Assembly (NCBI GenBank): GCA_914767715.1
Contig: OU612071.1
Coordinates: 23,991,681 to 24,055,680 of the forward strand
Source of the DNA: Membranipora membranacea
Lineage: Eukaryota > Bryozoa > Gymnolaemata > Cheilostomatida > Membraniporidae
Length of the DNA: 64,000 nucleotides
Direction of reading: 5' to 3'
The stretch's first letter is position 1. Each line of letters begins with the position of its first letter. Both the position numbers and the translations under genes were made by a program. The notes beneath the pieces were generated by a model, which saw only the letters and a list, made by a program, of their open reading frames with translations, was not told the origin of the DNA and ran no database searches. This document shows, piece by piece, positions 1-63,589 of this stretch.

Positions 1-1734
1 AGCACCTGTGATAAACCCAATGTCTGTAGGAAACTCAAAGTGTTGGGCATACCAATTTTGAAAACAAAGGACATTAACACCAAATTCAATCCAGAATGAA
101 CATACTAAAACGGCTGCACCCATGTCAATGCAACTATAACAAAACAAAACTGAAATGTGGAAGCTTAGACCCAATTACATTTGTACTTCATTAGAAATTG
201 CCTCTTACATCACACTGTTTGTAGCCTTCACTGCTGACAGGAATGCAGTTTTCAAGCTCAGCCTTGCTGAGTTTCTTGTAAGCAGCATTTTATTATCAAC
301 AACACCGTAACAGAAAATCAAAGCACCATCTGCGAAAATGGAATAATCATGTTCCCTTGTCTAAATTAACCGGCCTCATCATACATCATACAATGATTGC
401 ATTGCTTTCAATGAATAATTTATGCAGTGCGTTAATCAATCAACTAAGCACAAACATTCTTCTAACTGTTCAACTGTTAAAATTTACTAAGCCATCATTT
501 TCTGACTGCTTCAAATTGTTTGGAACATTACCCAAAAGAACAGATAACAATGCAGGTTCTTGAGCACATATTCCGCTTCTACATGTCACCAGGTCCATTT
601 CGGAAAATTTAAACCTAGAGGTTTGATATATTTGTAGGAAATGAAGACTCATTTATACAGGTTCTCATATAGAGATTTATATGATTTTATATACTCTACA
701 TGTTCTCATCCTATTAAGATTTATGATTCAAAACTTGTCTTATGATGTCTAAGTCTTAAAGAATTTCATTTCCTAAAGTGACTGACATTGTTTGTCCCAG
801 TCTGATGTCTGGGAAATGGAAGTACCTAAGGGTATGTCTATTCTATTCAATACAAACTGCTCCTAGTTTTCAAGCATACCCTGGTGAATTTGTGGAGCAT
901 CCAGTAGGCTGCATTGAGACAAATCTGGAAAAAGGTCATAGACATTATTAACACGATCCTAACATGCGGGCCTACACACAACCATGTGGAATTGTTCGTC
1001 CTGACCATAATTAATTTTGAAGCTTTTGACAGATCATTTGTCATCAGTTTTTACGAAACACAAATTTTGGGGTGAACATAATTATTGCATTGATAATGTA
1101 GGTATCTATTAACAAAAACTATGCACCAAAACCACGGTATTCCAGATAGTGCCTGCTCACGCAAAAATGTCAAAACAATATATTCATAGATCTTGAATCA
1201 TAAACATAATTATTATAGATTAATCAAACTGTGTATGTTTATACATTCACATTTCCCCAGCATTGGTCATTCATTCCACAATAGCAGTTTGGATATATTA
1301 ACTGTGGAACGCTTTCAGTAGCAATTCTGAACCTTTTATACACGACTCAATCAATTTAATGTGGTGAAAACAATGAAGAAATTGCGTTGGTCTTGTTTTA
1401 ATCTTATGACTGAGACAAGCAAGACAATGATTATGAAAGTTTCATCGCAAGACACAAAGAACACAATACGATTACAACAACTTAACCGATGAAAAGGTAA
1501 TACAAATTCAAATAGCAAGACAAATTTAGTTGTGTAGAGAGAATGAGTTTATCAGAAAGTAACACCAAAATATTTACAAATTTACCTATAAGACGTGACA
1601 CTGTCTGAATTTAAGATTAAATCCTCAAATGATTAACAGGCACAATTTACATTATGTTTAGACAGGCACAGGCTGAGGTACAGAAGTTTGGTGGTTACTA
1701 GTTCAGTACAGACAAGTCACTCAGGATTTGTCTA

Positions 1735-7197: not shown

Positions 7198-8341
7198 AGC
7201 ACCTGTGATAAATCCAATGTTTACTATAATTATAACTATACTAACTGACTAACTGCAACTATAACATAACAAAACTGAAATGTGGAAGCTCAGACCCAAT
7301 TACATTCGTACTTAAATAGAAATTGCCTCTTACAATACTGTTTTTAGCCTTCACTGCTGACAGGGATGCAGTTTTCGAGCTCAGCCTTGCTGAGTTTCAT
7401 GTAAGCAGCATTTTATTATCAAAAACACCGTAACAGAAAATCAAAGCACCATCTGCGAAAATGGAATAATCATGTTCCCTTGTCTAAATTAACCAGTCTC
7501 ATCATACATCATACAATGATTGCATTGCTTTCAATGAATAGTTTATGCAGTGCGTTAATCAATCAACTAAGCACAAACATTCTTCTAATTGTTCAACTGT
7601 TAAAATTTGTTAACCCATCATGTTCTGACTGCTTCAAATTGTTTGGAACATTACCTATAAGAACAGATAACACTGCAGGATCTTGGGCACACATTCCACT
7701 TCTACATGTGACGAGGTCCATTTCTGAAAATTAAAACCTAGAGGCTTGATATATTTGTAGGAAATGAAGAATCATTTATGCAGGTTCTCATATAGAGATT
7801 TCTATGCTTTTATATATTCCACATGTTTTCACCCTATTAAGATTTATGATTCAAAACTAGTCTTATGATGTCTAAGTCTTAAAGAATTTCATTTCCTACA
7901 GTGACTGACATTGTTTGTCTCAGTCTGATGTCTGGTAAATGGAAGTACCTAAGGGCATGTCTATTCTATTAAATACAAACTGCTCCTAGTTTTCAAGCAT
8001 ACCCTGGTGAATTTGTGGAGCGTCCAGTAGGCTGCATTGAGACAAATCTGGCAAAAGGTCATAAACATTATTAACACGATCCTAACATGCGGGCCTACAC
8101 ACAGCCATGTGGAATTGTTCCTCCTAACCATAAGTGATTTTGAACAGATCATTTGTCATCAGATTTTATGAAGCACGGTTCTTCAAATAATCATTGCACA
8201 CATATTTTTCCAAAGCAGAGTACACAAATTTTGGGGTGAACATAATTATTGCATTGATAATGTAGGCATCTATTAACAAAAACTATGCACCAAAATCACG
8301 GTATTCCAGATAGTGCCTGTCTCACGCAAAAATTTCAAAAT
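7198..8341 (+). repeat. Partial X block (first ~1.1 kb only)
   Basis: This matches 1-1165 and 11134-12190 and stops at CTCACGCAAAAA. It carries a private insertion of roughly 50 bases around 8171-8222. It makes a fourth, truncated X start in the array. No gene is supported. Confidence 0.75.
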
Positions 8342-12364: not shown

Positions 12365-12366
12365 CG
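12365..12366. repeat. Target-site duplication CG, left copy
   Basis: The empty sites in X1 (1343-1344) and X3 (31409-31410) read TATACACGACTCAATC. Here the left flank ends TATACACG and the right flank resumes CGACTCAATC at 20673. CG is therefore duplicated around the insert. Confidence 0.85.
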
Positions 12367-12384
12367 CTCAGTGTCATAAATGGG
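12367..12384 (+). repeat. Left terminal inverted repeat
   Basis: CTCAGTGTCATAAATGGG, 17 of 18 bases matching the inverted right end. No longer inverted or obvious subterminal repeat was found beyond it. Confidence 0.85.
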
Positions 12385-14198
12385 ATTTATTATCTCCTCC
12401 TGCTAAAAAACTTGTATGATCTTAATTCATTCTATTTACAGGGGAATTTCACCTTTTTTTGGATTAACACATAAGTCCACATCCATATTTTCATCTGTGA
12501 TGATAAAAATTTGTTACGCAATCTCAAACCACAAATTTTGGGTATTCAAATGCTTAAAAAATGAAAGGAGTTTTATAACTCAAGAAATAAGCTTGCTACA
12601 GCTCTAAAACTTTGCAGTTATATTCAGCATACCTCAAATATACCGCACAAAAGTTTCCGTCACCACAACATAAATATATTATGCAATAATTAATGTGGTT
12701 GACTCTATATTATCACATAACTTGGCAAAGTAAATGACATGTTCAGGGGTCAATCTTTGCCCGGTTAGCGGTTAGACTATTAGCAGGATCCAACCATGCT
12801 ATTATGTGATATCTAAAATGACTGCAGAAGCTAAAATAAGCTGTGCTGCATTACATAATAATTCATCCAGTCTGCTGATACTACTACTACTTTGTAGTAA
12901 AGTTTTGTACTGTGGTTATATCGTAAACAACATTAGCGTTTGAGCGGAATGTTTTGTGGTTTTTTATGCGAGTGCAAGCCAACCGCAAATTCCCACGATT
13001 ATTCATTCAGCTACTCTCAGACACAGTCACGTATCGGCAGCATGATTATTAGTGATATTGTGCCAATGAGAAGTGCATGAGTGATCCATGTAAATTAGTC
13101 CACCGGAGCTAAGTAAACACAAATTCCTGAACATCGGCAAAGCTATTCTGCACAGATAATAATTTACACCTCAAATTCAAAAGACATGACCAGTCGGTAG
13201 CGATGAAAATTGCATCAAATTAACTAAATTTTGTTACCCTAGACATAAAATGTTCAGAGATGAATTTGAGGTAACAAATTCAATTAGAATCGAAAGTATT
13301 TCTAAAACTCAGGAACAAAGCAGGCAACGATTCTTCAATTTTTGGCTCATTCTACACTAACTATAAATCATTACATGGCAAGTTTTTATGCAGACAGCAT
13401 GAACTGAGAAGTAATATTTTATCTGACCGATTCTTTGTTATTACATGTTTGGATAAAAAAGAAGAACTTTTGAGAAATGAATTATAGAGATCTCAGTTAA
13501 CAACAATTTTATTAAATGTGTAGAAAACTCAAAAATATAATAACAACTCAAGGCTACTACTAGTTGGTAAGACATAGTAAGTGACATGATTTGTGTTCTA
13601 AGCAATTAGATGTGTGGTAATAGATATGGCTATAATTAGATTCCGCTCATTAGCCGACATCGTAGTTATCATGTCACAATATTGTTGTTGTATCGATCTC
13701 TCGCCATTTGCCAATAGTTTTCAGTCTTTCGGATCAGTATCCCAGGCCTGCAAGAGAAAAATAAATCATATTCATATACATCGCCAGTTCAACAAATTCA
13801 ATCTTTTGATGGAAAAATCTGCACTGTCAGCCCATTTGGTTGAGGAAAAAATTATCTGACCAAAACATCTAACAGAAAAATCTGCAGTGTTAAAGCAGAT
13901 CAGAACAAATTTAGACTGATTCACACAAAGTTTATTGGGTGCTAATTGTTTGTACTTGATGCCAATATTATAGATCACCTGATGGTATTTGCCAAAAAAA
14001 AGGGCATTGGTAAGCCACTCCTAATTAGTCTGATAATAATAGCAATACCTTAGGCTGAATTCCCACCAATAAAAATTCAGGTCAATTAAGAGAGGGAAAA
14101 TTTGGAGGGAAAAACACACTTTCTCTCAGTGAAAAACTTCTGAGTTTAGACAAATTTGGTGACTTTTTGTAAAATAAGAGGTGCAAACTGACATATTC
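12385..14198 (+). other. Transposon 5' region upstream of the recognised coding exons
   Basis: This AT-rich sequence should hold the promoter and 5' untranslated region, and possibly an unrecognised first coding exon. Short open frames at 12416-12607 and 13614-13859 show no supporting signals. Nothing else is seen. Confidence 0.4.
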
Positions 14199-17100
14199 AT
14201 GGGGAAAGGAAGGCCACCAGTTCTTATCTGTGGTTTTGCCCATGTCATCCTCTTTTTGGAGTGCGCAGATCTACCAATATATCAAGAATGCATGGAACGC
14301 TATCCAGAAATGATGAAAGACCTCTGTGAGAGCTCTTATAAGAGACTAAGAAAAGGACAAAAACAACAGCTGACACAAACGTAAGTCACAAAACTCACAA
14401 TTGCAGAACAAAAAACTGGTGTAAATAATATGGGGTTTCTCAACTGCAAATATTTACAAGCAATAAGTAAAACTCATGTATTCAGATAATATTTCATATT
14501 TTTTCTTCAGGAAATCATATGTAGATGGCTCCAACGGTAAGGAAAACTTCCTACGTCACTTCAGTACTGCGAATTGGAACAAACTCAACCTGGAGGAAAG
14601 GCTAACTCATTCTTTTAAAAACTGTTTGGCATGTCTCAAAAAACCAAACAGTGCAACCTATTGTGTGCTCCGAGTAAATAGTGAAGCAGCATGTAGTGAC
14701 CAGGACTCAGTGATGGGAATAATCAATAAATCTAGGTCGAAGGATCCGCAGCACTGTGTTAAAAAAATAACAGAAAAAATTGACCCAGATTTTGAGAAGA
14801 AATTTGGTGTTACATTTACAGCAGCATTCACAAGCATGATCCAACTGGGGGTAAAATCTGATCAAATAAAAAACACAGTCGATACTGTAGGTGAGGCGAT
14901 AGCCTCAGATACAAATAAGGCGATTCTGTCAAACAACCTCAGCTACCGGAGTATGGCAAATGTCCGCAAAAAAATTGTTTTGGAGGACAAAAAAGAACAA
15001 ACTACTAAGCGATATGAGATCAAACATGACAACTTTCTGTTTGATCGGGAAGCTGTCAAGGTTGAACTTGGTGTAACACCAAATCCTGTATGGTCTCATC
15101 TCGCCGAAAGGTTTGTTGTTTTCCAACAGAATGGCAAACCTGCAATGAATGGGGGACAAGTCCTAAAAGCATATGCAATAGATGAGGGACTGTGTGCACC
15201 CTTGCCAGATACTGTCAGAGCCCGGAAAGTAAACAGACGAATAGATGTTGATGGTGTCAATGTTTCCATAAGCAAACTTTTACCTCATGATGAAAAGCTT
15301 AAGGGACTGACCAAGAACATGATTCTGTCTGGGGAGATAGACATTGGGACTCCAATAGTACCTATAACATTACATGTCCGCAAATATAATAAAATCCAGA
15401 AGCGTATGGTCAGAACAGAGGTGAGACTTGAAGGCAGAGCATACTCCCTTCAAAGCATTATGGACAAGTCACTGAAAGAGCAGGAACAGGAGGGAATGCT
15501 TAGAAAACCCTATCCCACAGACTACTCGTTTGCACTGGCCAAGTCAGAACTGGAAGAAAAAGGTAAAAACACCCCGAAAATTGATTGGAATGGACTCAAT
15601 GTGTAGATGACTATAATGTATTTTAAAACATTTCTTTCTGGCTGTTTTAAAAGTTGATGAATTTAAGAGAGACAAATTGTATTCAATTTAACTGCAAGCA
15701 CTGACCCCCTTCATTTCAGGTATAACAGTAAAGGCAGCTGACATTGCAGGCCTGAACAGTAAGATAACAAACAGGAAGTACACAATTTGGCATGACCACT
15801 CGACAATAGCTGGACATTCATGCTTTCTGGTGTTAGTGGGATTCCTTTATGATCCAATGGTGTTTCTAACAGAAAATGAGTTCAAAGGGTAATTGCGCAC
15901 ATACATAATTACCTTTTAACCAGTTTTAGTTTCATAGTTTTTAGTGATAATTTGATACTTAAGTCAGACCCTTGTGAATGAAATAAAATGTTGACACTAT
16001 GATTACCAAATACATTGCACGACGTCAACAGTGCTAGAAACATTGAAGTGTGATGAAATCTTTCCCAGAATGCACTTGAAACCTAGATATTGCACTTTGG
16101 GACATAAAATAATATGGCCATGGTATCACATGAATTATTTTATTTTCAGGGGAAGAATTCAGTGTTTCATAGAAATGCCCCATATCTATATGATAGCCAG
16201 ATCACAGTCATCAGTAAAGGATCAAGTCCTCTACACCCCTCTTCGTGTAGAAGACCTACTGCAGCTACAAGTTTCGATGACAACCACGGGAGTTTCTTAC
16301 AAATCTGATCTACGATTTGGAACAGGTAAAATTTTAACATAAACATGTTCAGCATCTTGTAAGTGCCAAGATTTAATTTCCTTCCTTGCCCCTCCCCCTC
16401 TCACCTTCTCTTCTCTCCCCCTTCCTCTCTCACCCCTGAGAGTAACGACTAAAGCAGTTTTCCGTTATACATCTTCAAAAAAGCTTATTATTGTATAAAT
16501 AGGAGATTCACCAGCAAGAGCCTTTGAGTCCGGAAATCAAATAAATGGACACTATCCATGCCATTGTGGAGCTGATATCAGATATGCTGACCAACATCAT
16601 CATCTAAGATGCCCTAGGTATACATCACTGGCAAGTAGACTGGATGTCATCGAAACCACCTCACTATGGGAAACCAGGAGTCAGGGTGATCTGTCAGTGT
16701 ATGACAATCTGGATGTGAGTAATCAACAGAATCTATAAATTGGTATACTCTTTAATGTGATTCAAGTCTGTTACGTTGAAATTCATAGGCTTAGGCCCAA
16801 TCGGATAGAAAAAAGAATCCAACATTATTTTGCCGTTAAGCATACCATCAACAATAACAATTTATACCGAAAGCTCAGACATAAACCTAATCTATCAAAT
16901 TCATTGGAAAATACAGGTTAATGCCCTTAGGACTGAGCTGGAAAGTCGTGGGGTCGATTGTGTTGAAATGCTCAAGCCAGAGATGAAACTGAGGCTTGAA
17001 AAAAAACTCGCTGGCATCAAAAGACCGCCTGCATTGCTCTGTGGGCCGGATGGAAACAGGGATCTAGTATTGGAGTATGAGGTTGCCCAGTTAGAACCTC

Positions 17101-20100
17101 TTCATGATCTGAAGACAATGATAGGTATAAATCAGTTATAATCCTACACCATGCTAGTTTTTGAGGCTGCTTGATTGAAATATCTTTTATTTTGTACGCT
17201 GCTGCCGTTGTAAATCTCAGCATTGGCTAGACAAAGCTTCAGCCGTAACAGAGACTTTATATATTATCTATAGTCTTTGGACATAATACAAATTTATTCC
17301 CTAATGATATCATACCATGTCTTGCTTGTAGATATTGAATGATAGTTCATCAAACATTTACTGCCAGTTTTATCAATTACCAGACCGCAAGCACAATGTT
17401 TACTGCCTATGTGGTTAAGTTGTGGTTTCTGATTGCAGGCAATGTATTCAAGGAAATGATGTTTGTTGTATCGCAGCAGCTTCAAGAGTTACTAAAATCA
17501 GTACTACCAGAGCTTCAAAGTATGTCAAGCCACATAGCATCAAAGCACCATTCATCCAGCAAAATTAATCTAGCCTCTCCTGAGTTAATTGCCTCGGCAA
17601 ATAGTAAAAATGGCCGAACTACATTAATTTCACTAGTCACAACAGCACTTTTCATAAAACATGAGACTAGTATTGTTTTGGGGATTTTTAGATCACCATC
17701 ATGAAATCTCAGGAAGTAAAGCCAGAAAAGCTCTTCTTGGAATCAGGGACATCATGTCCAATACTAATGAGATACACGAACAACCCGATGGAAGGAGATT
17801 GTATAGGCTGATAGTGAATCTGTCCCACATTCAAGACCTTGCATATGCCAATGACTCTAGGAGGAACAAAAGAAACATTTTAGCACTTTATGGGCTCACC
17901 TATCTGTTCCGACTTGATTTCAAAAAGGTAAATTTTAATAACATTCACATGTAGTTACTTTTAGACTAAAACATGATGTGAAGCACTTATTCAGCTCCTA
18001 CAGAAATTAGCAAAATTTTATTATATATTTTAGCTATTTGGTGCACCTAGGCAAGTATCTCACAGGGCAATGTTCGGAATGCCATTTCACTCCATAACTT
18101 CACACTTTCCCGAGTGGTTCAGGATAGTTGCATTGAGGTCGCTAAACGCTGAGTGCCAAGAACGTTTCTTTAAAGACATCAAAGGAACGGAGGATAGCAC
18201 TAACTATCAACCTGAGCATATACAAGTGAACGCCATGACACGCCTTCATATGAAGCGGTTAGAAGGTGATTTCGGCAGGTCGCTGAAGTCACAAGAGTCT
18301 GCAATCGCGAGGATGTGGGAGCTATTTCCAAAGAGGAATAACACAATCATTACTCAGAGTATGATTGATGAAGATCCTACAGGTTTTGCTGCACATAAGG
18401 AGAGAATTTCTGATTATCTCCTTGATGAATGCTGGCACGAGGAACTGGAAGATGGATCATGGATTTTTTTGGACGGAGAGGGTGAGGCTGAAGAAAGATC
18501 AGGAAATTATGTACAGTTGATGCATTTCCGGTAAATATTGCCTAACATCTAAAAGAGTATTGGTCTGTTGCATACTGAGCAAAGTTGGATTTATTAAAGT
18601 TGATCATCCATATCTCATTGCATATTGAAGTTTTTAATGGCATATTATCACTGTCGGTATTTACAGTGATGAAAATATTAATGATGTTTGGGACCATATC
18701 ACTAGCTGCTTCTCAGCCTACAAAGCTAAACGACTGGCAAGCTGTGATTTAGCCGCTGTTGATGATGGATTTGATGACAAGGAGGAAAGCGCTGAATCGC
18801 TGGAGGATATTGGTGAATTAAACCAGCAACAACAGGAGGAAGAAGATGAGCCAGAGATGATAACAGAAATAGGTAAGTTTTGATTGGGGTACATTTGGTG
18901 TGCTGATCTCATAATACTGGTGATACTTTTAGGTGAGTTTGCATGATTTAGACATTTACACGGTGGGTGAATGGGGTATAGATAATTACTTGGCATGATC
19001 TCGGAATAATAATAGTCTCGTCTTGATAATTTCAGTGCCTCCAGATGAGGAAGTATGTCAGGAATCAGATATTGACAGTGACTCTCATATCTCCTCTACA
19101 AGACTAGCAGGTATTAAGTAAATTTTCACTAGTTAAAGACTTGTGCCCAAATCTGTAAATTTTATCCTAAATCTTTTATGGATCTTTCATAATTCTCTCT
19201 GTCCCAATCACGTGCATTGAATACTCGCAATGGTTGATGTTGTAACACATACCTTGGAATTTATATTTGAAGGTGTGAATGATCTTTCGCTCAGCAGCAC
19301 TTTGTGTACTCCATTCAAGAAACCTAGACTGGATTTATCGCATGTATCGAAGACACCAATCACCGACCTCTCTGTTTCCGAGATACACCCTTCAGGTATT
19401 GCAAGGACTGAAGCCTGGAACGAAATAAAACGACAGTGAATTAAATTAATACATGTTGATCACAACTAAAGTAGCACATCATTAGCAAATCAAATGTTGC
19501 CCAGGTCACTGTTAGTGTTTATGGGTGATGATGCATACTGCTAACAGTGACGGAGGCCAAATTTGAGCGCTATTATCCCTGTTGTAGAAATAAATTTAAT
19601 AATATATGTAAGTTTGTGTGTATCCTAAATTCAACATACTAAATTTTAGGTGAATTAACCCCTAGAGCTGAAAACCTTTCGAGTCTTCCCAGCACCTCAA
19701 CGCCGATTGTAGATGGCGACAGTACAAGTGAGAAGAGTTCGAAGCACTTGAGTGGAGATGGTATGTTTGTTTATTACCATCACTATCATCTTGTAATCTA
19801 ATCGTAATATGATTGCATTATAAAAGCCTACACTGCCTACCTGATCTGGCCCAACCTGACATACTAATAAAAAACGAAATATTGCAACTTTATGATGATT
19901 AATGATACTAATGACAGATTTAACCTTTTGCAGAGCTTATCCTGAGGAGGCTTGTTGGCACTCAATTAGCAGACCAGTTTCTGTCGAAGCGGCGGAAGTA
20001 TAACGTTAAATCTTCACCTTCAAACAAACGGAGCTACTACGACGTCCGCTCTAAAATAGTACCGATACTCAAGACTGCAAAAGAGAAAACGAGAGAGAAA

Positions 20101-20232
20101 ATAAAAAGATTTGAGTTAAAAAACATAAATGAAGTTGGGTTTATAAGAGCCATGGGCGACGAACAAGCCTTCACCGAGAAAGATTTTTGCAATCGGGAAA
20201 TAAGAGCTATCAACCACTACCTTCATTATTGA
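14199..20232 (+). CDS. Putative DDE-type transposase of the CG-target element, 15 exons
   Basis: Exons inferred from GT..AG sites and frame: 14199-14380, 14511-15562, 15720-15888, 16150-16325, 16503-16714, 16917-17124, 17439-17603, 17692-17927, 18034-18530, 18667-18872, 19036-19110, 19273-19395, 19650-19760, 19934-20232. The first could hide an earlier exon, making 15; 14 are directly mapped. They join into 1237 codons without a stop. Residues 435-439 read WHDHS; 527-537 GDSPARAFESG; a Cys/His cluster (C546, C548, H558-560, C563) follows; 836-846 read SLNAECQERFF. I propose D437, D528 and E840 (or E843) as the catalytic triad with a zinc-binding insert. Residues 966-1140 are acidic and the C-terminus (RRLVGTQLADQFLSKRRKY) is basic. 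From memory, similar WHDHS/GDGPA proteins are common as uncharacterised genes in cnidarian and sponge genomes. The 88-base intron 17604-17691 is the least certain: without it the frame breaks. Confidence 0.8.
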
Positions 20233-20359
20233 GACAATGCAAAGTTAACGTCTTCTGTGTTATAAAGTTACTCACCTATTCCAGAATCCAAGAGCGAATG
20301 TTGCTTGTTTTTCACTGCTAAGAGTATTTTTATCCAAAGCTGTTTAGTGAAAATTCAGG

Positions 20360-20365
20360 AATAAA
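20360..20365 (+). terminator. Polyadenylation signal of the transposon gene
   Basis: AATAAA 128 bases after the stop codon and still inside the element; a plausible 3' end signal. Confidence 0.5.
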
Positions 20366-20654
20366 TATAAAAATTCAGAGCTTGGACTAGGATCCATAGC
20401 ATTTTGTTATTCAAACTTACAGCCAGCCAGTACAGCTGCTTTACAGTGAATATAAATCTGCATCGACTATCAACACAATGATGCAAGGCATTAAAGTTCA
20501 AACTCAAGTCAATAAACCACAGGCATGTTTTGATCCAAAATGATAATATTATTAGTCGCTTGGCATTGCAATTAAAAATAGCTCATCCAATCAAAAGTAA
20601 CTGAATATGGGAATTTCCAAACACGTGTTAATTTGTTTACAATTACGAGCTCAA

Positions 20655-20672
20655 CCCGTTTATGACACTGAG
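20655..20672 (-). repeat. Right terminal inverted repeat
   Basis: CCCGTTTATGACACTGAG, the inverse of the left end with a single C/T difference. Confidence 0.85.
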
Positions 20673-20674
20673 CG
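20673..20674. repeat. Target-site duplication CG, right copy
   Basis: Second copy of the CG dinucleotide that occurs once at the empty sites 1343-1344 and 31409-31410. Confidence 0.85.
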
Positions 20675-22258: not shown

Positions 22259-22702
22259 TCAGTTGGAAAATAGGGTGTCGAATTCAAAAAAGTTTTTTTT
22301 GTCTCTTAGTGGTTTTACACTTGAATGGCTTGTATTATTATCTATTTTTGCTCTACAAGTGAATTTGCTGTTTGTATTTATTCCAATACGACGGTTCATG
22401 GAGTGATGATTGTTGTCGGCTATTTCAGTGGATTGTTCACTGCAAGAGGTGTGCTGGAAAATTTTTATGGCTGGCAGTGCCAGATTGTCTAGTTTCTGTT
22501 CATAGTTGTCAGAGGACCGCACCAAAATACGAGTAGCAGAGCGCTGTATCCTCTCTAGTCTGGTTTTGTCAGTGTCTGATAGCAGATTGGGCCATGCAGG
22601 GCAGGCTTTGCCGATTACAGACTTAATATTGGCTACGTAGAAGGATTTTAGGCCGTCACTGGAGGCTTGATATGGGATTTGCCATTTTTGATAGGAATCC
22701 AC
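22259..22702 (-). pseudogene. C-terminal end of a LINE reverse-transcriptase ORF (X2)
   Basis: The 147-codon minus-strand frame contains SVIGKACPAWPNLLSDTDKT followed by RLERIQRSATRIL. That matches the post-reverse-transcriptase region typical of non-LTR elements (a Y/K-x-CPAW-x-N-x-L stretch, then LExIQRxAxRI). It ends with a basic, aromatic tail (KPLRDKKNFFEFDTLFSN). Only this 3' end remains, a 5'-truncated insertion. The superfamily (CR1/L2-like?) is not certain. Confidence 0.65.
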
Positions 22703-23599
22703 AAGCTACCTTTTCAACTCACAAATTAATTATTGGAAGCAAAATTAGAAAAAAAACGTCTTCTTTTAAATCGATTGTATATGTTATTGCTTATGTAATA
22801 ACCACCTGCAACCAAGATACAACCTGCAATGCTATCTCCTACTTTAATGCTGGACCATGTATTAAATGTAGGTATATAGTTTGAAGGGTTACAGGATATA
22901 ATAATATAGTCAGTCATTTCAGATTTGGTACTGGCCCGTCATTCATCCTAGCCGGGTCCTTGCGGAACGGGACTAAAAATATCAGAGGTGCACTGTGTGT
23001 TTGCAGTTTGCACACCCACATGCAGTAAAAAAGATCCCTTCTGCCTGGTCAGTAACAATTAGCATGCAAGCGTGATCAAGGATGATCAACAAGCGCTCAA
23101 TGGACCATGAATTATCACACCGCTTCAATTACAGCATATAATGCATTCGATAGGCAGGCGTGCTACAATATAAATTATCATTGCCCAAATAATGGCAAGA
23201 AAATATATCTTGAAAAATTGATGTTACTCACCTATGAAAGCCTCTTACTCCTTTAATATGATATCAATTGGCAAAAGATTAAAAATGTACAGAAGATGTT
23301 TCCTACCATCTGAGAAACATCCATAGTGATAAATTCAACAGGAAAGAAATTAAATCAGGTGGGTTAAAGGCATGTTTTTTGACCCTAAAAATACCCTTTT
23401 TCCCCCGAAAGTGATAAAAATTTTGGGTCAACCCTCATGAAAGACAAAATGTACAATGACCCATTGAAAAACCTTCGAATGATAGCTCAAATGTCAAAAT
23501 CGGACAACAACTGCTCAAGTTACCACAGGAGGGTTAATCTCCATGGATGTCTATATGTCGCAAAACAAGGCACAGATCTGACCTTAACTACACTGTATA

Positions 23600-29901: not shown

Positions 29902-31793
29902 AGATGCTTGAAAGCAAATCCATCAACATGAAACACTTTGAGTGGAGGTATCTCAAGAAATAAATATAAGCTTCAAATCATACCAAATCTTACAATCGCA
30001 ACATAGTCGCTGTTTACATATATAGTCATCATGGAAATAAGTATCTATATCTCCATTACGTTTGTTTACCCCTTCTCTGAGCAAATGTTATGCAGCACCT
30101 GTGATAAACCCAATGTCCGTAGGAAACTCAAAGTGTTGGGCATACCAATTTTGAAAACAAAGGACATTAACACCAAATTCAATCCAGAATGAACATACTA
30201 AAACGGCTGCACCCATGTCAATGCAACTATAACATAACACAACTGAAATGTGGAAGCTTAGACCCAATTACATTCGTACTTCATTGAAATTGCCTCTTAC
30301 ATCACACTGTTTGTAGCCTTCACTGCTGACAGGAATGCAGTTTTCAAGCTCAGCCTTGCTGAGTTTCTTGTAAGCAGCATTATATTATCAACAACACCGT
30401 AACAGAAAATCAAAGCACCCTCTGCGAAAATGGAATAATCATGTTCCCTTGTCTAAATTAACCGGTCTCATCATACATCATACAATGATTGCATTGCTTT
30501 CAATGAATAGTTTATGCAGTGTGTTAATCAATCAACTAAGCACAAACATTCTACTAACTGTTCAACGGTTAAAATTTACTAACCCATCATTTTCTGACTG
30601 CTTGTTTGTTTTGTTTTGTTTGGAAAATTACCCATAAGAACAGATAACAATGCAGGTTCTTGAGCACATATTCCGCTTCTACATGTCACCAGGTCCATTT
30701 CGGAAAATTAAAACCTAGAGGTTTGATATATTTGTAGGAAATGAGGAATCATTTATACAGGTTCTCATATAGAGATTTCTATGATTTTAAAAACCTACAT
30801 GTTCTCATCCTATTAAGATTCATGATTCAAAACTTGTCTTTGATGTCTAAGTCCTAAAGAATTTCATTTCCTATAGGGACTGACATTGTTTGTCCCAGTC
30901 TGATGTCTGGGAAATGGAAGTACCTAAGGGCATGTCTATTCTATTCAATACAAACTGCTCCTAGTAGGCTGCATTGAGACAAATCTGGCAAAAGTTCATA
31001 AACATTATTAACACGATCCTAACATGCGGGCCTACACACAACCATGTGGAATTGTTCCTCCTGACCATAAGTAATTTTGATCCTTTTGACAGATCATTTG
31101 TCATCAGATATTATGAAACACATATTTTGGGGTGAACATAATTATTGCATTGATAATGTAGGCATCTATTAACAAAATCTATGCACCAAAATCACGGTAT
31201 TCCAGATAGTGCCTGTCTCACGCAAAAATGTCAAAACAATATATTCATAGATCTTGAATCATAAAGATAATTATTATAGATTTATCATCACAAACTGTGT
31301 ATGTTTATACATTCACATTTCCCCAGCATTGGTCATTCATTCCACAATAGAAGTTTGGATATATTAACTGTGGAACCCTTTCAGTAGCAATTCTCAACCT
31401 TTTATACACGACTCAATCAATTTCATGTGATCAAAACAATGAAGAAATTGCGTTGGTCTTGTTTTGATCTTATGACTGAGACAAGCATGACAATGATTAT
31501 GAAAGTTTCATCGCAAGACACAAAGTACACAATACGATTACAACAACTTGACCGATGAAAAGGTAATACAAATTCAAATAGCAAGACAAATTTAGTTGTA
31601 GAGAGAATGAGATTATCAGAAAGTAACACCAAAATATTTACAAATTTACGTATAAGACATGACACTGTCTGAATTTAAGATTAAATCCTCAAATGATTAA
31701 CAGGCACAAGATACATTATGACAGGCACAGGCTGAGGTACAGAAGTTTGGTGGTTACTAGTTCAGTACAGACAAGTCATTCAGGATTTGTCTA

Positions 31794-32970: not shown

Positions 32971-33414
32971 TCAGTTGGAAAATAGGGTGTCGAATTCAAA
33001 AAAGTTTTTTTTGTCTCTTAGTGGTTTTACACTTGAATGGCTTGTATTATCATCTATTTTTGCTCTACAAGTGAATTTGCTGTTTGTATTTATTCCAATA
33101 CGACGGTTCATGGAGTGATGATTGTTGTCGGCTATTTCAGTGGATTGTTCACTGCAAGAGGTGTGCTGGAAAATCTTTATGGCTGGCAGTGCCAGATTGT
33201 CTAGTCTCTGTTCATAGTTCTCAGAGAACGGCACCAAAATACGAGTAGCAGAGCGCTGTATCCTCTCTAGTCTTGTTTTGTCAGTGTCTGATAGCAGATT
33301 GGCCCATGCAGGGCAGGCGTTGCCGATTACAGACTTAATATTGGCTACGTAGAAGGATTTTAGGCCGTCACTGGAGGCTTGATATGGGATTTGCCATTTT
33401 TGATAGGAATCCAC
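32971..33414 (-). pseudogene. C-terminal end of a LINE reverse-transcriptase ORF (X3)
   Basis: Paralog of 22259-22702 created by the segmental duplication. The open frame of 147 codons is kept, with about eight residue differences. Same motif (CPAW, then RLERIQRSATRIL). Confidence 0.65.
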
Positions 33415-33544
33415 AAGCTACCTTTTCAACTCACAAATTAATTATTGGAAGCAAAATTAGAAAAAAAAACTTCTCCTTTTAAATCAATTGTATATGTTAT
33501 TGCTTATGTAATAACCACCTGCAACCAAGATACAACCTGCAATG

Positions 33545-39116: not shown

Positions 39117-39341
39117 TTAAACACAATATGCTATAATGTTACTCAGTTCACTATCATGAAATCCAAAAATGAACATGTGCAAGCATGTTTTAGCGTTTGA
39201 TACACTGGCACAAATTAACTCCTTCAGAGCAATTGCCGTCGGTGTCATAAATGTGGTGGACCTACAGCGCCCATGAACTCCCAAACTGGGGTCACCATCA
39301 CGTTTTTCAATGATGCTCCTGCTCGATTTCATAGGATTTTC
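39117..39341 (-). CDS. Candidate exon of an unknown protein
   Basis: An acceptor-like GGTTTTAACAG on the minus strand precedes 39341, followed by an open frame (ENPMKSSRSIIEKRDGDPSL and on) to a stop at 39117. It lies on the same strand as 37432-37806 and could belong to the same decayed or real gene. Family unknown. Confidence 0.2.
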   Translation of the reverse strand, partial: ENPMKSSRSIIEKRDGDPSLGVHGRCRSTTFMTPTAIALKELICASVSNAKTCLHMFIFGFHDSELSNIIAYCV

Positions 39342-51949: not shown

Positions 51950-52432
51950 AGTGTTCCCCAACACAGATATTGTAATCAGTATGAAGCACTGAATTAGATT
52001 CTTCTCTTAGAATGGAAAAAGTATCATAGCGTTATACCGGTAGGACACTAAACACAGGGACCCATCTGACTGTTATCTGATTGGCTGTCCCTAGTAGCAT
52101 GAATAATTAGCCTGAGAAATTGTCTTGTTTACAAAATTGCAAACAGTAATTATACCCCATACAGTGTCGATGATTAGGGCATTTCTAGATTGCTACTAGG
52201 GACTGGCTATTTTTGCAAGCCCTTTGTTTTGCAAAAGAAAGCTAATGATGCTATTCCAGATATGGAATTCAATGGTATGAAGTTATTGAACAGGCCAATA
52301 AGAAAAAAGTAAGATGTAATGGGCCAATCATATCAAAGCCTGTGAAAATTCGAAGAGAGAGGGCAACTCTTCATTTTTGAAGGTTTTAGCGTGAGAGGGC
52401 AATTCCGAACCAGTTACCTTATTACCCTGGAG
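51950..52432 (+). mobile_element. Short interspersed element, interrupted by a nested insertion
   Basis: The outer parts 51950-51986 and 52283-52432 together match the inverse of 63399-63589 almost base for base (GTTCCCCAACACAGA to ATTACCCTGGAGT). The inner 288 bases are a separate insertion. The element is about 190 bases long when uninterrupted and has no coding capacity. Confidence 0.75.
51987..52274 (+). mobile_element. 288-bp MITE-like insertion with 8-bp target duplication
   Basis: GTATGAAG occurs on both sides (51979-51986 and 52275-52282) and once in the uninterrupted copy at 63.5 kb. The ends are CACTGAATT and its near inverse AATTCAATG. An 8-bp duplication and CA-starting ends are typical of hAT-type elements; this one is far too small to code. 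Confidence 0.75.
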
Positions 52433-53546
52433 TAGGACTGACTGACCCAGATCATTTTTCCTCGACCACTTCACTCTTTCTTTTACATGAAAGTTTACCA
52501 TTTCAGTTTTGTGTGAATAGAACTACCACCAGTTCCTTTCATTTAATACACGACATCGGACACTTTTCTGTGCCCTGTTTTAAATAAGAGTTATCTCCTC
52601 CTGTCGAACACAAATTTATCATGGCTTATCATGTAGCCTGTGCTAAATTTGCAGAAATAACATCCATTGGGGTAGGGTAAGGGTCCAGCCCTGCAAGTAA
52701 GTTATACCTCATCATAAGAACTTTTACATATCTGCAGGATAAAAAAATCTGAGCATGCATGATAAAGTTATTGAATGCAACAGTGTATTGTGCACCCTGA
52801 TCACTGTCAATTAGCTCTACTACTGCATACATCAAAGGATGATTTATAGCATTCATTATGCAACCACAAATCACTATGTAGAAACTGTTTGTAAACAGTA
52901 AACAAAAGAGGGATTTCCCCAACCACAAGATCAGCTGATTCATTCATAAGTATGAGACGCTCAGTTTTATCCGAAAACAGTCATTATACGAAAGCATTTA
53001 TAGTCATAGCATACAAAGTCAAATAAGTTCAAAAGATAAGAAGATAAATAATGCCAGCAGCAGCCTAGTTGTGCAGCTTTGGGTTGCACTAATCACCCAT
53101 CAATTATCTAACATCAAGAAGCAACCATGTAAAAAAGACACTGGACAAAATAAGGGTAAGATCGGTTTTTATTTTCCTCATGATTATTCCAAGCTTTATA
53201 AGTAAAGAACCAAAACATAGCAGATTTTGATATTAAATCACGCATATACACGCCTGAAAGTTGAGAAGTGGTAATTGCAAATATTGCTGCACTAGCCTTT
53301 TCATGCAGGCGTGGGTTTTTGTTTTTTTGGTCCAAAACTCGTGGCCACGTGACAAGGCTACTGCTGCAGCATTTATCTTCTTTCTTTATTATTATTAGTC
53401 TGATCTGAGCTATCAGTTACAATGCATGAAATTTGAAGATTACCGAGCAAGCTTTGATAAATTTATAAAGATTTATATAGAATATCAAAATCATTTAAAT
53501 AAAACATTGACAACTTTTTTACTTTAATATTATCTTTTACAGGATT
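52433..53546 (+). other. No gene recognised
   Basis: Probably includes the left flank of the THAP/DDE transposon relic; its exact left end was not found. Confidence 0.35.
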
Positions 53547-55952
53547 GTGTGGATGTCTACCATTTACACAATTTTTAGATTTCTGTCTGATAACCTAAAG
53601 TGGAAGAATTGGGTCACCTTGATCAATCGACAAAAAAGCGTAACTGATAAAACATTGTGGGTCCCGGACAGTAATTCGAGAGTATGCTGTGTTCATTTTG
53701 TAGATGGTCTACCCACTGATAAAAATCCCAATCATACGCAGAAGCTTGGATACGATGCAACACTGAAGATTAGCACTTTACTGAGGAGCCCAAGGAATAA
53801 AAAAAAACGTATCAGTAGAAACAGGAACAACCAGCAGCTCGGAGCCACTAATGATATCAGACAGATCTGGTCAACCAGGGCCATCTAATATTTCCTTTCA
53901 CAAAACAAATACAGCCATTTTGGAAACATTATTTGATGATGAGTGCTTTAGTGAAATCGAGACTAATCCTCTGGTCAATATTCAGGAAGGGCTGTATGCC
54001 GCTGCCACTGATGAGCTACATAGACCACCTGTCCCAACCTCTGCAGCTGATAATAACAATCATGAACTATTGGAGGCTAATGGAAAACTCATGGCCAAAT
54101 CTATGGTTTTGAGAGCCAAAACTGCCCAGCTCAAACTTCATCAAACTCAAAAAGCTCTTGAAAACAGACCAAGATGCGTCATTTTACACTGGTGTCCCAA
54201 AGGTGAAGATTTTTGTACTATTAGCTGTACTTTACAGTCAGCTCCATGTAGTGAAGAAAACAATACCTGTCACCCATATCGCACAGCTTGAGTACAAAAG
54301 ATTTCAGAACCTCCGTAAGAATACACATGTCAAGCTGTGCAATGAAGATCGGCTGCTGCTAGTGTTAATGAGGCTTAGACTTGGACTTTTACGCAAGGAT
54401 CTAGCTGACATGTAAATATAAATTTTAATTTGTAAGAGCTATATGTTGTAAACAATACACGATATTGTTACCCATTTCTTACAATGTACATGCACTGTTC
54501 ATAATGTTACAAAAGCTGAAAGGTCTTGGTGCAAGCTAAAGTGCAAAAATATTAGCTACAAAAAATAAGACGTACCTTTTATTTATCAGGCTTTGTCGGT
54601 CATTATTAGAAGGGAACACCCATGGGATCACAAAAATATTCTAGATTGATTAATTATTTAAATCTCTTTATAAAACTATCATTTTAGCTAAATGTTTAAA
54701 ATGAAATTTATTTACAGATTTGGCATCAGTGTGACCAGTGTTAAGGAAATTCTCAACTGTACCCTACCGCTCCTCACCTGTACCCTACCGCTCCTCACCT
54801 GTACCCTACCGCTCCTCACCTGTACCCTACCGCTCCTCACCTGTACCCTACCGCTCCTCACCTGTACCCTACCGCTCCTCACCTGTACCCTACCGCTCCT
54901 CACCTGTACCCTACCGCTCCTCACCTGTACCCTACCGCTCCTCACCTGTACCCTACCGCTCCTCACCTGTACCCTACCGCTCCTCACCTGTACCCTACCG
55001 CTCCTCACCTGTACCCTACCGCTCCTCACCTGTACCCTACCGCTCCTCACCTGTACCCTACCGCTCCTCACCTGTACCCTACCGCTCCTCACCTGTACCC
55101 TACCGCTCCTCACCTGTACCCTACCGCTCCTCACCTGTACCCTACCGCTCCTCACCTGTACCCTACCGCTCCTCACCTGTACCCTACCGCTCCTCACCTG
55201 TACCCTACCGCTCCTCACCTGTACCCTACCGCTCCTCACCTGTACCCTACCGCTCCTCACCTGTACCCTACCGCTCCTCACCTGTACCCTACCGCTCCTC
55301 ACCTGTACCCTTCCGCTCCTCACCAAAGTGCTGAACCCTACCGCTCCTCACCAAAGTGCTGAACCCTACCGCTCCTCACCTGTACCCTACCGCTCCTCAC
55401 CTGTACCCTACCGCTCCTCACCTGTACCCTACCGCTCCTCACCTGTACCCTACCGCTCCTCACCTGTACCCTACCGCTCCTCACCTGTACCCTACCGCTC
55501 CTCACCTGTACCCTACCGCTCCTCAACTGTACCCTACCGCTCCTCACCTGTACCCTACCGCTCCTCACCTGTACCCTACCGCTCCTCACCTGTACCCTTC
55601 CGCTCCTCACCAAAGTGCTGAACCCTACCGCTCCTCACCAAAGTGCTGAACCCTACCGCTCCTCACCAAAGTGCTGAAGCCTCTCATTGTCTTTTACACT
55701 ATGGAAGAAATCGCTAAAACTATCCCCAAAGAATACTCGAACTATAAAAGACTACGTCGTATTATTGACTGCACCGAGTTCACCATTCAAAAACCTAAGG
55801 ACCTTAAAAACCAAGCAGCAACATGGTCCGAATACAAACATAACAAAACTGTAAAGTGCCTGGTCGCTATTACACCTCAAGGTAGCACACTGCGTTTCAT
55901 ACCCAAGAATTGTCTGACAATCCTGTACAATTCTAGAATTTTCAGAAACTGA
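53547..55952 (+). pseudogene. Broken THAP-domain DDE transposase gene
   Basis: Three out-of-phase frames join into one transposon protein. The first (53547-53888) has THAP-like WKNWVTLINRQ then VCCVHFVDGLPTDKNP and LGYD, missing the first Cys pair in frame. The frame then shifts to 53851-54150 and again near 54150, where FYTGVPK starts the segment leading to the helix-turn-helix RLLLVLMRLRLGLLRKDLAD. A likely intron 54414-54717 joins this to [13 protein letters not shown] minisatellite then intrudes. The DDE part resumes at 55671 with RRIIDCTEFTIQKP (first catalytic Asp), ATWSEYKHNKTVKCLVAITPQG, and stops at 55952, so the second Asp and the Glu are missing. Relic of a Harbinger/ISL2EU-like DDE_Tnp_4 element with linked THAP. 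Confidence 0.75.
54757..55666 (+). repeat. 21/28-bp minisatellite with two-level structure
   Basis: The unit CTGTACCCTACCGCTCCTCAC is repeated 27 times (54757-55323). Two 28-base units starting CAAAGTGCTGAA follow (55324-55379), then 11 more 21-mers (55380-55610) and two more 28-mers (55611-55666). Both 21-mer blocks end with the same variant unit (CCCTTCC). The array is GC-rich in an AT-rich region. Its stop-free frames on both strands come from the 21-base period and are not genes. Confidence 0.95.
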
Positions 55953-60964: not shown

Positions 60965-63289
60965 CTGGAAATCAAGTTGAATTTTTAAAAATATATTATC
61001 AAGTCATATGGACGGGTGCTGTGGTGCAAGAGAAATTGGAGATTAGATTCAACAAAACTACCTCACTCAATCCATGTTCAGAATTCTATATAATGAGGCA
61101 ACCTTACACAAAACCAATATTTCCATGATGCATGTTTCAATTGAAATAATGAGAGTAGTGAATCATATACACGCCTCAAACTGAACACAAAACAATTATA
61201 AAATATTGATAACTCAATGAATATTTGATGTGTCATGTCTTCTAACATGAGATCACTTAAAACAATAACATATTGTGAGCATTAAATGCTGACTTAGATT
61301 ACTGTTCCTAATATGAAGATGAAAGCCATATTTGATTGTAAACGAAGAATACAAAAATTACTTAGGTATGGTAGAAAAACCAGTTACTTTAGAAACTTCG
61401 ACATGACAGAAAATCTGAATGTAAAACATAGATCGGCAGATTGAATCAAAATTTTACCTTGGCCATTTCAGTCCACATAAAGAGGTTTAATCTGATCACA
61501 ATCACTGTACACTCTTAATTTTTTTAATTCCTATAAGATAATTTATCAAGTCTCATGAGCTTGCCTTTTCCAACTTCAGGCTACTGACTTTCAGTATCTT
61601 GCCCAGACCATACTTACAGCAAATTACCACATCAATCAATACTAGTAGCACTGACAATAGTAACAAGATCTTGCAAATCCATGTCACAGAGTAGCAAATC
61701 AAGCAGCATCCAAGCATTGTACCTCATACCATCTTACATCGTACAGGGGCACACAAAGCAATTGCACTGCGTTTTGTTGTAATGATTCAAAACTTCTAGT
61801 GTTTTGTCGGATCAGGGAAACACATTTTTTCTCAGCTGTTAACGCTTAATTATGTAGTTTTTACATGTTTGTGTACTGTGCGTTACAAGCGTTTCAAATA
61901 GGCCCAATGTGATAGATTAACCATAACCATAAACCCTGGTTTGTGATTTCACCTTGGCTTATCATTGTTATTGAAAAAATTGACTTGTGAGAACTAAATT
62001 CAGTTTGTTCACCTAAACAAAGATAGAAGTCTCTTGTCTCCTTGAAATAGTTTCAATTACATTGAAGTTACAATGGATTTGATGGCTTATCCCCCAAAAA
62101 ACTATAGAGTGAAGGCTAATTATTAAATCTAGGTATTTACACATAAAGGTGTGTTGTGTAATGTTACTTGATAAAATCTCTTATACATGGTCTGTGTACG
62201 GCGGGTTCAGTAAATGGGATAATCCTGTTATTTGTCAACTCTGAGAAATTTAAAGAGCTCTTACAGCAAAAGTTCGCTCCCGAAGACTAGCTATATAGTA
62301 GAAGACCATATCATTTTGTTTGCAATTATAGACTCAAATTTAATTGCTTGAGTTCGTTATTTCAGACCAATGTTTTATTGGTCTTCCCTGAATTCCCTAC
62401 CATGAATGGCAGCAAAATATGAGGTTCACTCGTCTCTCTTACCTTGTAGGACGTGATTTCAACCTTGGGATGTCAGAGAATTAGCTAGGTTGTTTTTTCC
62501 TCTATGGCTGCAGTATTTTCTGTAGTCTGGGATAACCTAATATTTTATTGGGGTAAGGGCTGCTGAGCCCATTGTCATTAAATCGCATTACACAATGGAC
62601 AGTTTGCTAATATAGAGAAATGGTTCATTAAAGTGGGGTGATATCTCAGACATATGTCCAGCATGGTTGCATCACATGACCGCCTGTTAACAGGAAGAAA
62701 TACAGGTTAGGCTGCCCTAAAAGTGGGACGTCTGGAGAGGAAAATCTCACACTTAGGGAATGATGCATCCTAGTAACTAGAAAGTGTCATATAGTGGAGG
62801 CAACCTAGGACCTTACAAACTATTTGTGCATTGACATGCCAGAACTTAAACAAGCATTTATCGTCCATTGACAAAGACACCTTGATCTTATACAATTGGC
62901 TAAGAAACCAAAAAAAACCTGACAGAATACTTCAAATAATGAACAATTTTATATACACAAGTTTATATTGACAATAGGAATCAAGTCAGATACCTTTAGG
63001 TGCCCATACAATTATTGCAGCTGTTAGACTAGAGCTATGTTTTGACCACAGATTTGCTACCAGAAGCAAGTCATTATCAATCATCATGATATTATATTGC
63101 TAGTTATTGCCACAACGCATTATCAATGCATTTTAGCGCATAGGAAGAGAGAGAAATTCTGAAGAAGGGAATTCATGGCAATGCCTTGATCACATCAATG
63201 AATAAAAACATGATGCTTGAAGATAGATAATATCAAAAAGAGCTAAAAATACAATTATTTGATTTGGAGTGAGGCTGAGGCTTATCATT
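60965..63289 (+). other. No gene recognised
   Basis: Should contain introns and possibly earlier exons of the minus-strand lectin gene, none of which I can support. Confidence 0.35.
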
Positions 63290-63358: not shown

Positions 63359-63398
63359 GGAGGTGTAAGAGAGTATTATTTGTTACTATACAGTCTCA

Positions 63399-63589
63399 CT
63401 CCAGGGTAATAAGGTAACTGGTTCGGAATTGCCCTCCCACGTTATACCCTTCAAAATGAAGAGTTGCCCTCTCTCTTCGAATTTTCACAGGCTTTGATAT
63501 GATTGGCCCATTACATCTTACTTTTTTCTTATTGGCCTGTTCAATAACTTCATACTGATTACAATATTATCTGTGTTGGGGAACGAGGG
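63399..63589 (-). mobile_element. Uninterrupted copy of the ~190-bp element at 51950-52432
   Basis: Inverse of the 52-kb copy, without the nested 288-bp insertion and with a single GTATGAAG (as CTTCATAC on this strand). Confidence 0.75.

Follow-up and report, generated by a model that had tools for sequence, protein, structure and literature searches.

What kind of mobile element interrupts one of three paralogous blocks in a genomic stretch of the bryozoan Membranipora membranacea, and to which lineage of transposons does it belong? The stretch, here called the window, comprises 64,000 nucleotides (contig OU612071.1, positions 23,991,681 to 24,055,680), and of its paralogous blocks X1, X2 and X3, X2 contains an insert that is absent from the other two. 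This insert is very probably a complete, structurally intact and probably autonomous cut-and-paste transposon of the CMCT clade (CACTA/EnSpm-Mirage-Chapaev-Transib), to which RAG1 also belongs, encoding a RAG1-type DDE transposase. The placement in this clade follows from the RAG1/Transib-type DDE fold predicted for homologues of the transposase and from its own catalytic-type residues.

Insertion site and terminal inverted repeats

Around the insertion point the three blocks are approximately 92-98% identical, and one member of this tandem repeat carries a clean insertion. The insert comprises 8306 bp (window positions 12367-20672), and relative to the empty sites the gain amounts to 8308 bp, i.e. 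the element plus one extra CG. The empty-site sequence TATACACGACTCAATC was present as an exact match in both X1 and X3, with CG occurring there once. When the flanks of X2 were fused via one CG, 96 of 100 positions were identical to X1 and 99 of 100 to X3. Measured against these two empty sites, the target duplication is 2 bp (CG); it derives from one insertion (n=1), so that CG is one data point and is silent on target preference. The sequence-only reading had described 8306 extra bases in X2 with CG on both sides and a 2-bp CG duplication; its coordinates and letters were correct, X1 and X3 carrying CG once and X2 twice.

The ends of the insert form inverted repeats, CTCAGTGTCATAAA, which are perfect over 14 bp (12367-12380 and, inverted, 20659-20672) and match at 17 of 18 positions over the full 18 bp that had been reported earlier. 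The best of 200,000 random pairs of 18-mers drawn from the window reached 15/18, and the binomial chance of an end match of at least 17/18 is 8e-10. The earlier description of a full-length DNA transposon is supported, as are its exact boundaries. The terminal CTCAGTG shares six of seven bases with CACAGTG, the heptamer of the recombination signal sequence (RSS), without its initial CAC; this likeness was noticed post hoc, would arise by chance at about 0.0013 and may serve as a hint only. The element ends CT..AG, and CAGTG begins two bases inward, instead of the 5'-CA..TG-3' termini usual in the CMCT clade, which are described as present 'in most cases' and hence not absolute (PMC12730594).

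In the rest of the window, no match to the element was obtained with blastn at E<=0.1, and none outside the element with tblastn at E<=1. A terminal-repeat-like sequence at 39238 (2 mismatches) was dropped because no partner end was found in the window, and a candidate empty site at 61166 (2 mismatches) was dropped because of its unrelated flanks. The left flank has one more paralogue, the fourth and a partial one (7254-8340), which stops short of the insertion point and therefore yields no third empty site. The G+C content of the window is 37% and its CpG observed/expected ratio 0.45.

The predicted transposase and its placement

The predicted gene lies on the + strand and consists of 14 exons (14199 to 20232) and 13 introns, all GT-AG, giving 3627 nt and 1208 aa with no internal stop, in line with the large multi-exon gene suspected earlier. 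Splice sites were picked by hand under the GT-AG rule, the gene model being derived from DNA alone. The best blastp match, P0001, showed 29% identity over residues 11-953 (E 8e-91), but few matches extended beyond residue 1000; most of the protein is backed by homology to about residue 950, so that exons 11-14 are little supported. The element showed no further long reading frame, the longest frame on the opposite strand (125 codons) being mostly antisense to exon 10. A RAG2-like gene was not seen among the long reading frames, although a gene of small exons could escape and no search aimed at RAG2 was made.

A protein search with the window protein yielded five relatives among 7990 scored candidates, and a search with P0005 yielded 82 (P0005 included) among 5290; both searches together gave 86 proteins. 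An intermediate profile search (A1) gave no match, perhaps as a result of low-complexity words filling the candidate list, and no confirmed relative was found among related loci in the viral-contig and genome-contig collections. The relatives that bear an organism name are from Branchiostoma, and three are named 'uncharacterized', 'hypothetical' or 'AP-5 complex subunit zeta-1'. The last of these labels belongs to P0003 (Branchiostoma belcheri), which is apparently misannotated. A tree built from the catalytic region, with 55 of 86 rows kept, paired the window protein with P0001 (support 0.89) and placed both in a six-member clade together with P0064, P0003, P0059 and P0002 (support 1.0).

Conserved residues were determined by aligning the window protein with 85 of the 86 relatives in MAFFT, P0004 being excluded as an apparently chimeric gene model; counts refer to rows with a residue at the position, window included, and totals vary since many rows are fragments. 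Acidic residues were conserved at D437 (54/55), D528 (63/63), E812 (75/75) and E815 (75/75), the Cys pair at C546 (63/63) and C548 (65/65), and His at H660 (75/75), H791 (75/76) and H796 (74/76). The aspartates of RAG1 are D600 and D708. An N-terminal set, C11 (25/25), H94 (30/30), C99 (30/32) and C102 (30/31), is a putative DNA-binding module. The residues D437, D528, C546/C548, H660, H791-H796 and E812 agree, except for the spacing of the Cys pair, with the layout described for the CMCT clade, i.e. a DDE core with C(2)C and H(3-4)H between the second D and the last E, plus a third His (PMC12730594). H660 lies in EPLHD, and at its position RAG1 has DALHCD with H795, described as an active-site residue (PMC7204232).

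Based on the alignment, a SAP-like domain appears to be inserted between the Cys pair and H660 in the window protein. Of 32 relatives searched at E<=0.01, 10 matched Pfam SAP (best 2.9e-7, several just below the Pfam cut-off), while it was not listed for the window protein itself at E<=10. The family profile also matched PDB entry 1zrj, a SAP structure, at E 0.0014.

No Pfam transposase model was matched by the window protein (E<=10), by eight homologues (E<=1) or by 32 of the 86 homologues (E<=0.01), and none appeared in the precomputed Pfam annotation of all 86. Transposase_21 (PF02992) was likewise unlisted for the window protein, the eight and the 32 homologues at these respective thresholds, weak matches being dropped by the HMMER filters. 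A sequence search of the PDB with the window protein gave no meaningful match, the best being plasminogen (E 0.12), and chains of RAG1, BbRAGL and Transib were absent from the PDB sequence matches of both the window protein and the family profile.

The fold of two homologues, P0001 and P0044, was predicted. By VIA, both models had RAG1, BbRAGL and HzTransib as their nearest folds, RAG1 being the best match with approximately 460-470 residues aligned, and a RAG1/Transib-type catalytic fold is thus predicted for both proteins. No Pfam match of the IS5/ISL2 type (PHIS: ISL2EU, Spy, Harbinger) was listed, and RAG1 came first by homologue fold among the folds compared. None of the fold matches was a CACTA or Chapaev structure, so that the fold ranking cannot separate these lineages. 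The 2-bp duplication lies within the range of 2-5 bp given for the CMCT clade (PMC12730594).

Several observations weigh against the placement. The folds were predicted on homologues rather than on the window protein, and Foldseek, which otherwise returned the same nearest folds, did not have BbRAGL among the 50 matches listed for P0044. A sequence-only comparison with RAG1 by hhalign was not significant alone (probability 1.8%, P 0.027), and none of the four PDB matches of the family profile at E<=10 was a transposase. The Cys pair is CxC in the window protein versus Cx2C in RAG1 and many homologues (CxC, Cx2C and Cx3C all occur among the homologues), and the Cys-to-His distance is 112 versus 65 in RAG1. 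To these is added the single duplication on which the target-site length is based.

If the placement is correct, the single gene would produce an RNase H-like DDE transposase of 1208 aa. Its core would be of the RAG1 type and comprise a dimerisation/pre-RNase H region, D437, D528, the active-site-type H660 and E812, together with the Cys pair and the His pair, which should jointly hold one zinc. A dimer would bind the CTCAGTG ends, and both ends would be nicked and cut. RAG1 and Transib cut via a hairpin on flanking DNA, and by analogy the same intermediate may be formed here. The freed 3' ends would then be joined to the target at a 2-bp stagger, gap repair giving rise to the CG duplication. 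Since the gene is open, the element is probably autonomous.

Alternative explanations and other features of the window

The window is tandemly duplicated, and misassembly, or a host gene within a segmental duplication, might imitate an insertion; this is highly improbable, as the insert ends coincide with inverted repeats matching at 17/18 and with a duplicated dinucleotide, and the relatives of the gene have a predicted DDE transposase fold. It is also very unlikely that no duplication was made and that one CG, a palindrome, belongs to the element's own end. A single event cannot fully tell a duplication from a carried CG, but the element would then be asymmetric, with CG at one end only, and yet the inverted ends stop exactly at CG on both sides. 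A RAG-like (RAGL/ProtoRAG) or Transib transposon is suggested by the nearest folds and by CTCAGTG, which is one base off the RSS heptamer. This identity is nevertheless very unlikely, because the duplication is 2 bp and not the 5 bp described for these elements (PMC7204232; PMC4411706), only one gene was found, with no second long reading frame and no RAG2-like gene seen among the long frames, the ends are without the initial CAC, and the PDB sequence matches included no chain of RAG1, BbRAGL or Transib.

A CMCT transposon is the preferred reading, and nested within it stands an even chance that the element is an ordinary member of an EnSpm/CACTA-type (or Chapaev/Mirage) invertebrate family already in Repbase or Dfam. 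Duplications of 2 bp are described as normal in animal CACTA elements (PMC4298943, PMC1636069), Chapaev and Mirage were merged into EnSpm by Repbase according to PMC4455052, and homologues are not rare (the 82 of the P0005 search), so that curators may have met them. On the other hand, neither the window protein nor its homologues matched a Pfam transposase in the searches above, versus Transposase_21 reported in SmTRC1 (PMC1636069), and the ends are CTCAG rather than CCC or CAC. More tentatively, and with the balance somewhat against it, the element could represent an undescribed, widespread lineage of the RAG1/Transib clade, possibly of superfamily rank. Such a lineage would be marked by heptamer-like CTCAGTG ends, duplications of 2 bp, a C/H/CxxC module at the N terminus and a RAG1-type core with a SAP-like domain inserted in its zinc region, and could serve as a new outgroup in tracing how the V(D)J recombinase arose. 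The open PMC literature yielded no paper describing such ends or a CMCT transposase with a SAP domain; Repbase, Dfam and most subscription journals lay outside this search, whose outcome does not show the lineage to be undescribed.

The clade in which RAG1 originated gains an intact-looking element whose two ends and two empty sites all lie in a single window. Its branch is unlike Transib and RAGL in the length of the duplication, in the ends and in the arrangement of domains, and could help to establish which RAG1 features are ancestral. As the gene is open, transposition can be tested at the bench. Annotation would also gain, three of the relatives being uninformatively named or apparently misnamed and the family being missed by Pfam transposase models in the searches made.

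Table 1. Coordinates of the element, its gene and the empty sites in the window
Feature	Position	Strand	Remarks
Empty site, paralogue X1	1337..1352	+	exact match to the empty-site sequence
Left CG target duplication copy	12365..12366		empty sites with single CG
Left terminal inverted repeat	12367..12384	+	14 bp perfect, 17/18
5' noncoding part of element	12385..14198		longest stop-free stretch 85 codons
Exon 1	14199..14380	+	start ATG; Cys11 of conserved N-terminal C...H...CxxC set
Exon 2	14511..15562	+	His94, Cys99, Cys102; N-terminal and dimerisation/pre-RNase H-like region; RAG1 match starts nearby, by homology
Exon 3	15720..15888	+	first catalytic-type Asp D437 (WHDHST)
Exon 4	16150..16325	+	gene model
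Exon 5	16503..16714	+	second catalytic-type Asp D528; zinc-type Cys pair C546, C548
Exon 6	16917..17124	+	SAP-like domain (by homology); active-site-type His H660 (EPLHD)
Exon 7	17439..17519	+	gene model
Exon 8	17692..17927	+	gene model
Exon 9	18034..18530	+	HxxxxH (H791, H796); catalytic-type Glu E812
Exon 10	18667..18872	+	gene model
Exon 11	19036..19110	+	gene model, little homology support
Exon 12	19273..19395	+	gene model, little homology support
Exon 13	19650..19760	+	gene model, little homology support
Exon 14	19934..20232	+	C-terminal part and stop codon; little homology support
Right terminal inverted repeat	20655..20672	-	14 bp perfect, 17/18
Right CG target duplication copy	20673..20674		empty sites with single CG
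Empty site, paralogue X3	31403..31418	+	exact match to the empty-site sequence

Other features could also be observed in the window. Two 166-bp inverted repeats (52275-52440 and 63391-63555), 95.8% identical and approximately 11 kb apart, possibly belong to another transposon; no clear target duplication was found outside their arms. A long array of 21-bp tandem repeats (54652-55680) creates long reading frames, probably without meaning, on either strand. Two paralogous copies of a 148-codon open frame on the - strand (22262-22705 and 32974-33417) presumably resemble an end fragment of a non-LTR reverse transcriptase.

Comparison with named transposon families

The target duplication of EnSpm/CACTA elements ranges from 2 to 3 bp, and the earlier view that no known superfamily would accommodate a 2-bp duplication is not supported, its list having left out this group, in which 2 bp occurs, and its relatives. 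Two-bp direct repeats are described for animal CACTA/TRC elements (PMC1636069) and a 2-bp duplication for 'Spongebob' of Hydra (PMC4298943). With TRC, SmTRC1 and Spongebob the window element shares this length, terminal inverted repeats and, according to the literature, probably a CMC-type core; it differs in that the ends of TRC and Spongebob start with CCC (PMC4298943, PMC1636069), whereas its own are CTCAG and neither CACTA/CAC nor CCC, and in that Transposase_21 was not found. Chapaev and Chapaev3 likewise belong to the CMC group of animal transposons, but for Chapaev duplications of 3-4 bp and invariable CAC..GTG ends are reported (PMC4079192), versus 2 bp and CTC..GAG here. Within the CMCT clade, of which Lanisha is also a member, PlavakaA and ESTA make 2-bp duplications as does the window element; unlike it, both are reported from fungi, PlavakaA ending TGT..ACA and ESTA duplicating TA (PMC12730594). 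While the broad kind of the element is known, its branch below clade level thus appears to match no named family by the criteria compared.

Among the RAG-like elements, ProtoRAG (RAGL) is described with 5-bp duplications, RAG2L and ends resembling the RSS heptamer (PMC7204232), whereas the window element has a 2-bp duplication and one gene; for HzTransib, 5-bp duplications are likewise given (PMC4411706). In the window protein, differing from RAG1 and RAGL, the SAP-like domain appears to separate the Cys pair from the active-site-type His. RAG1 itself is the best match by the predicted fold of homologues, and the window protein shares with it the set D, D, C, C, H, H, H and E.
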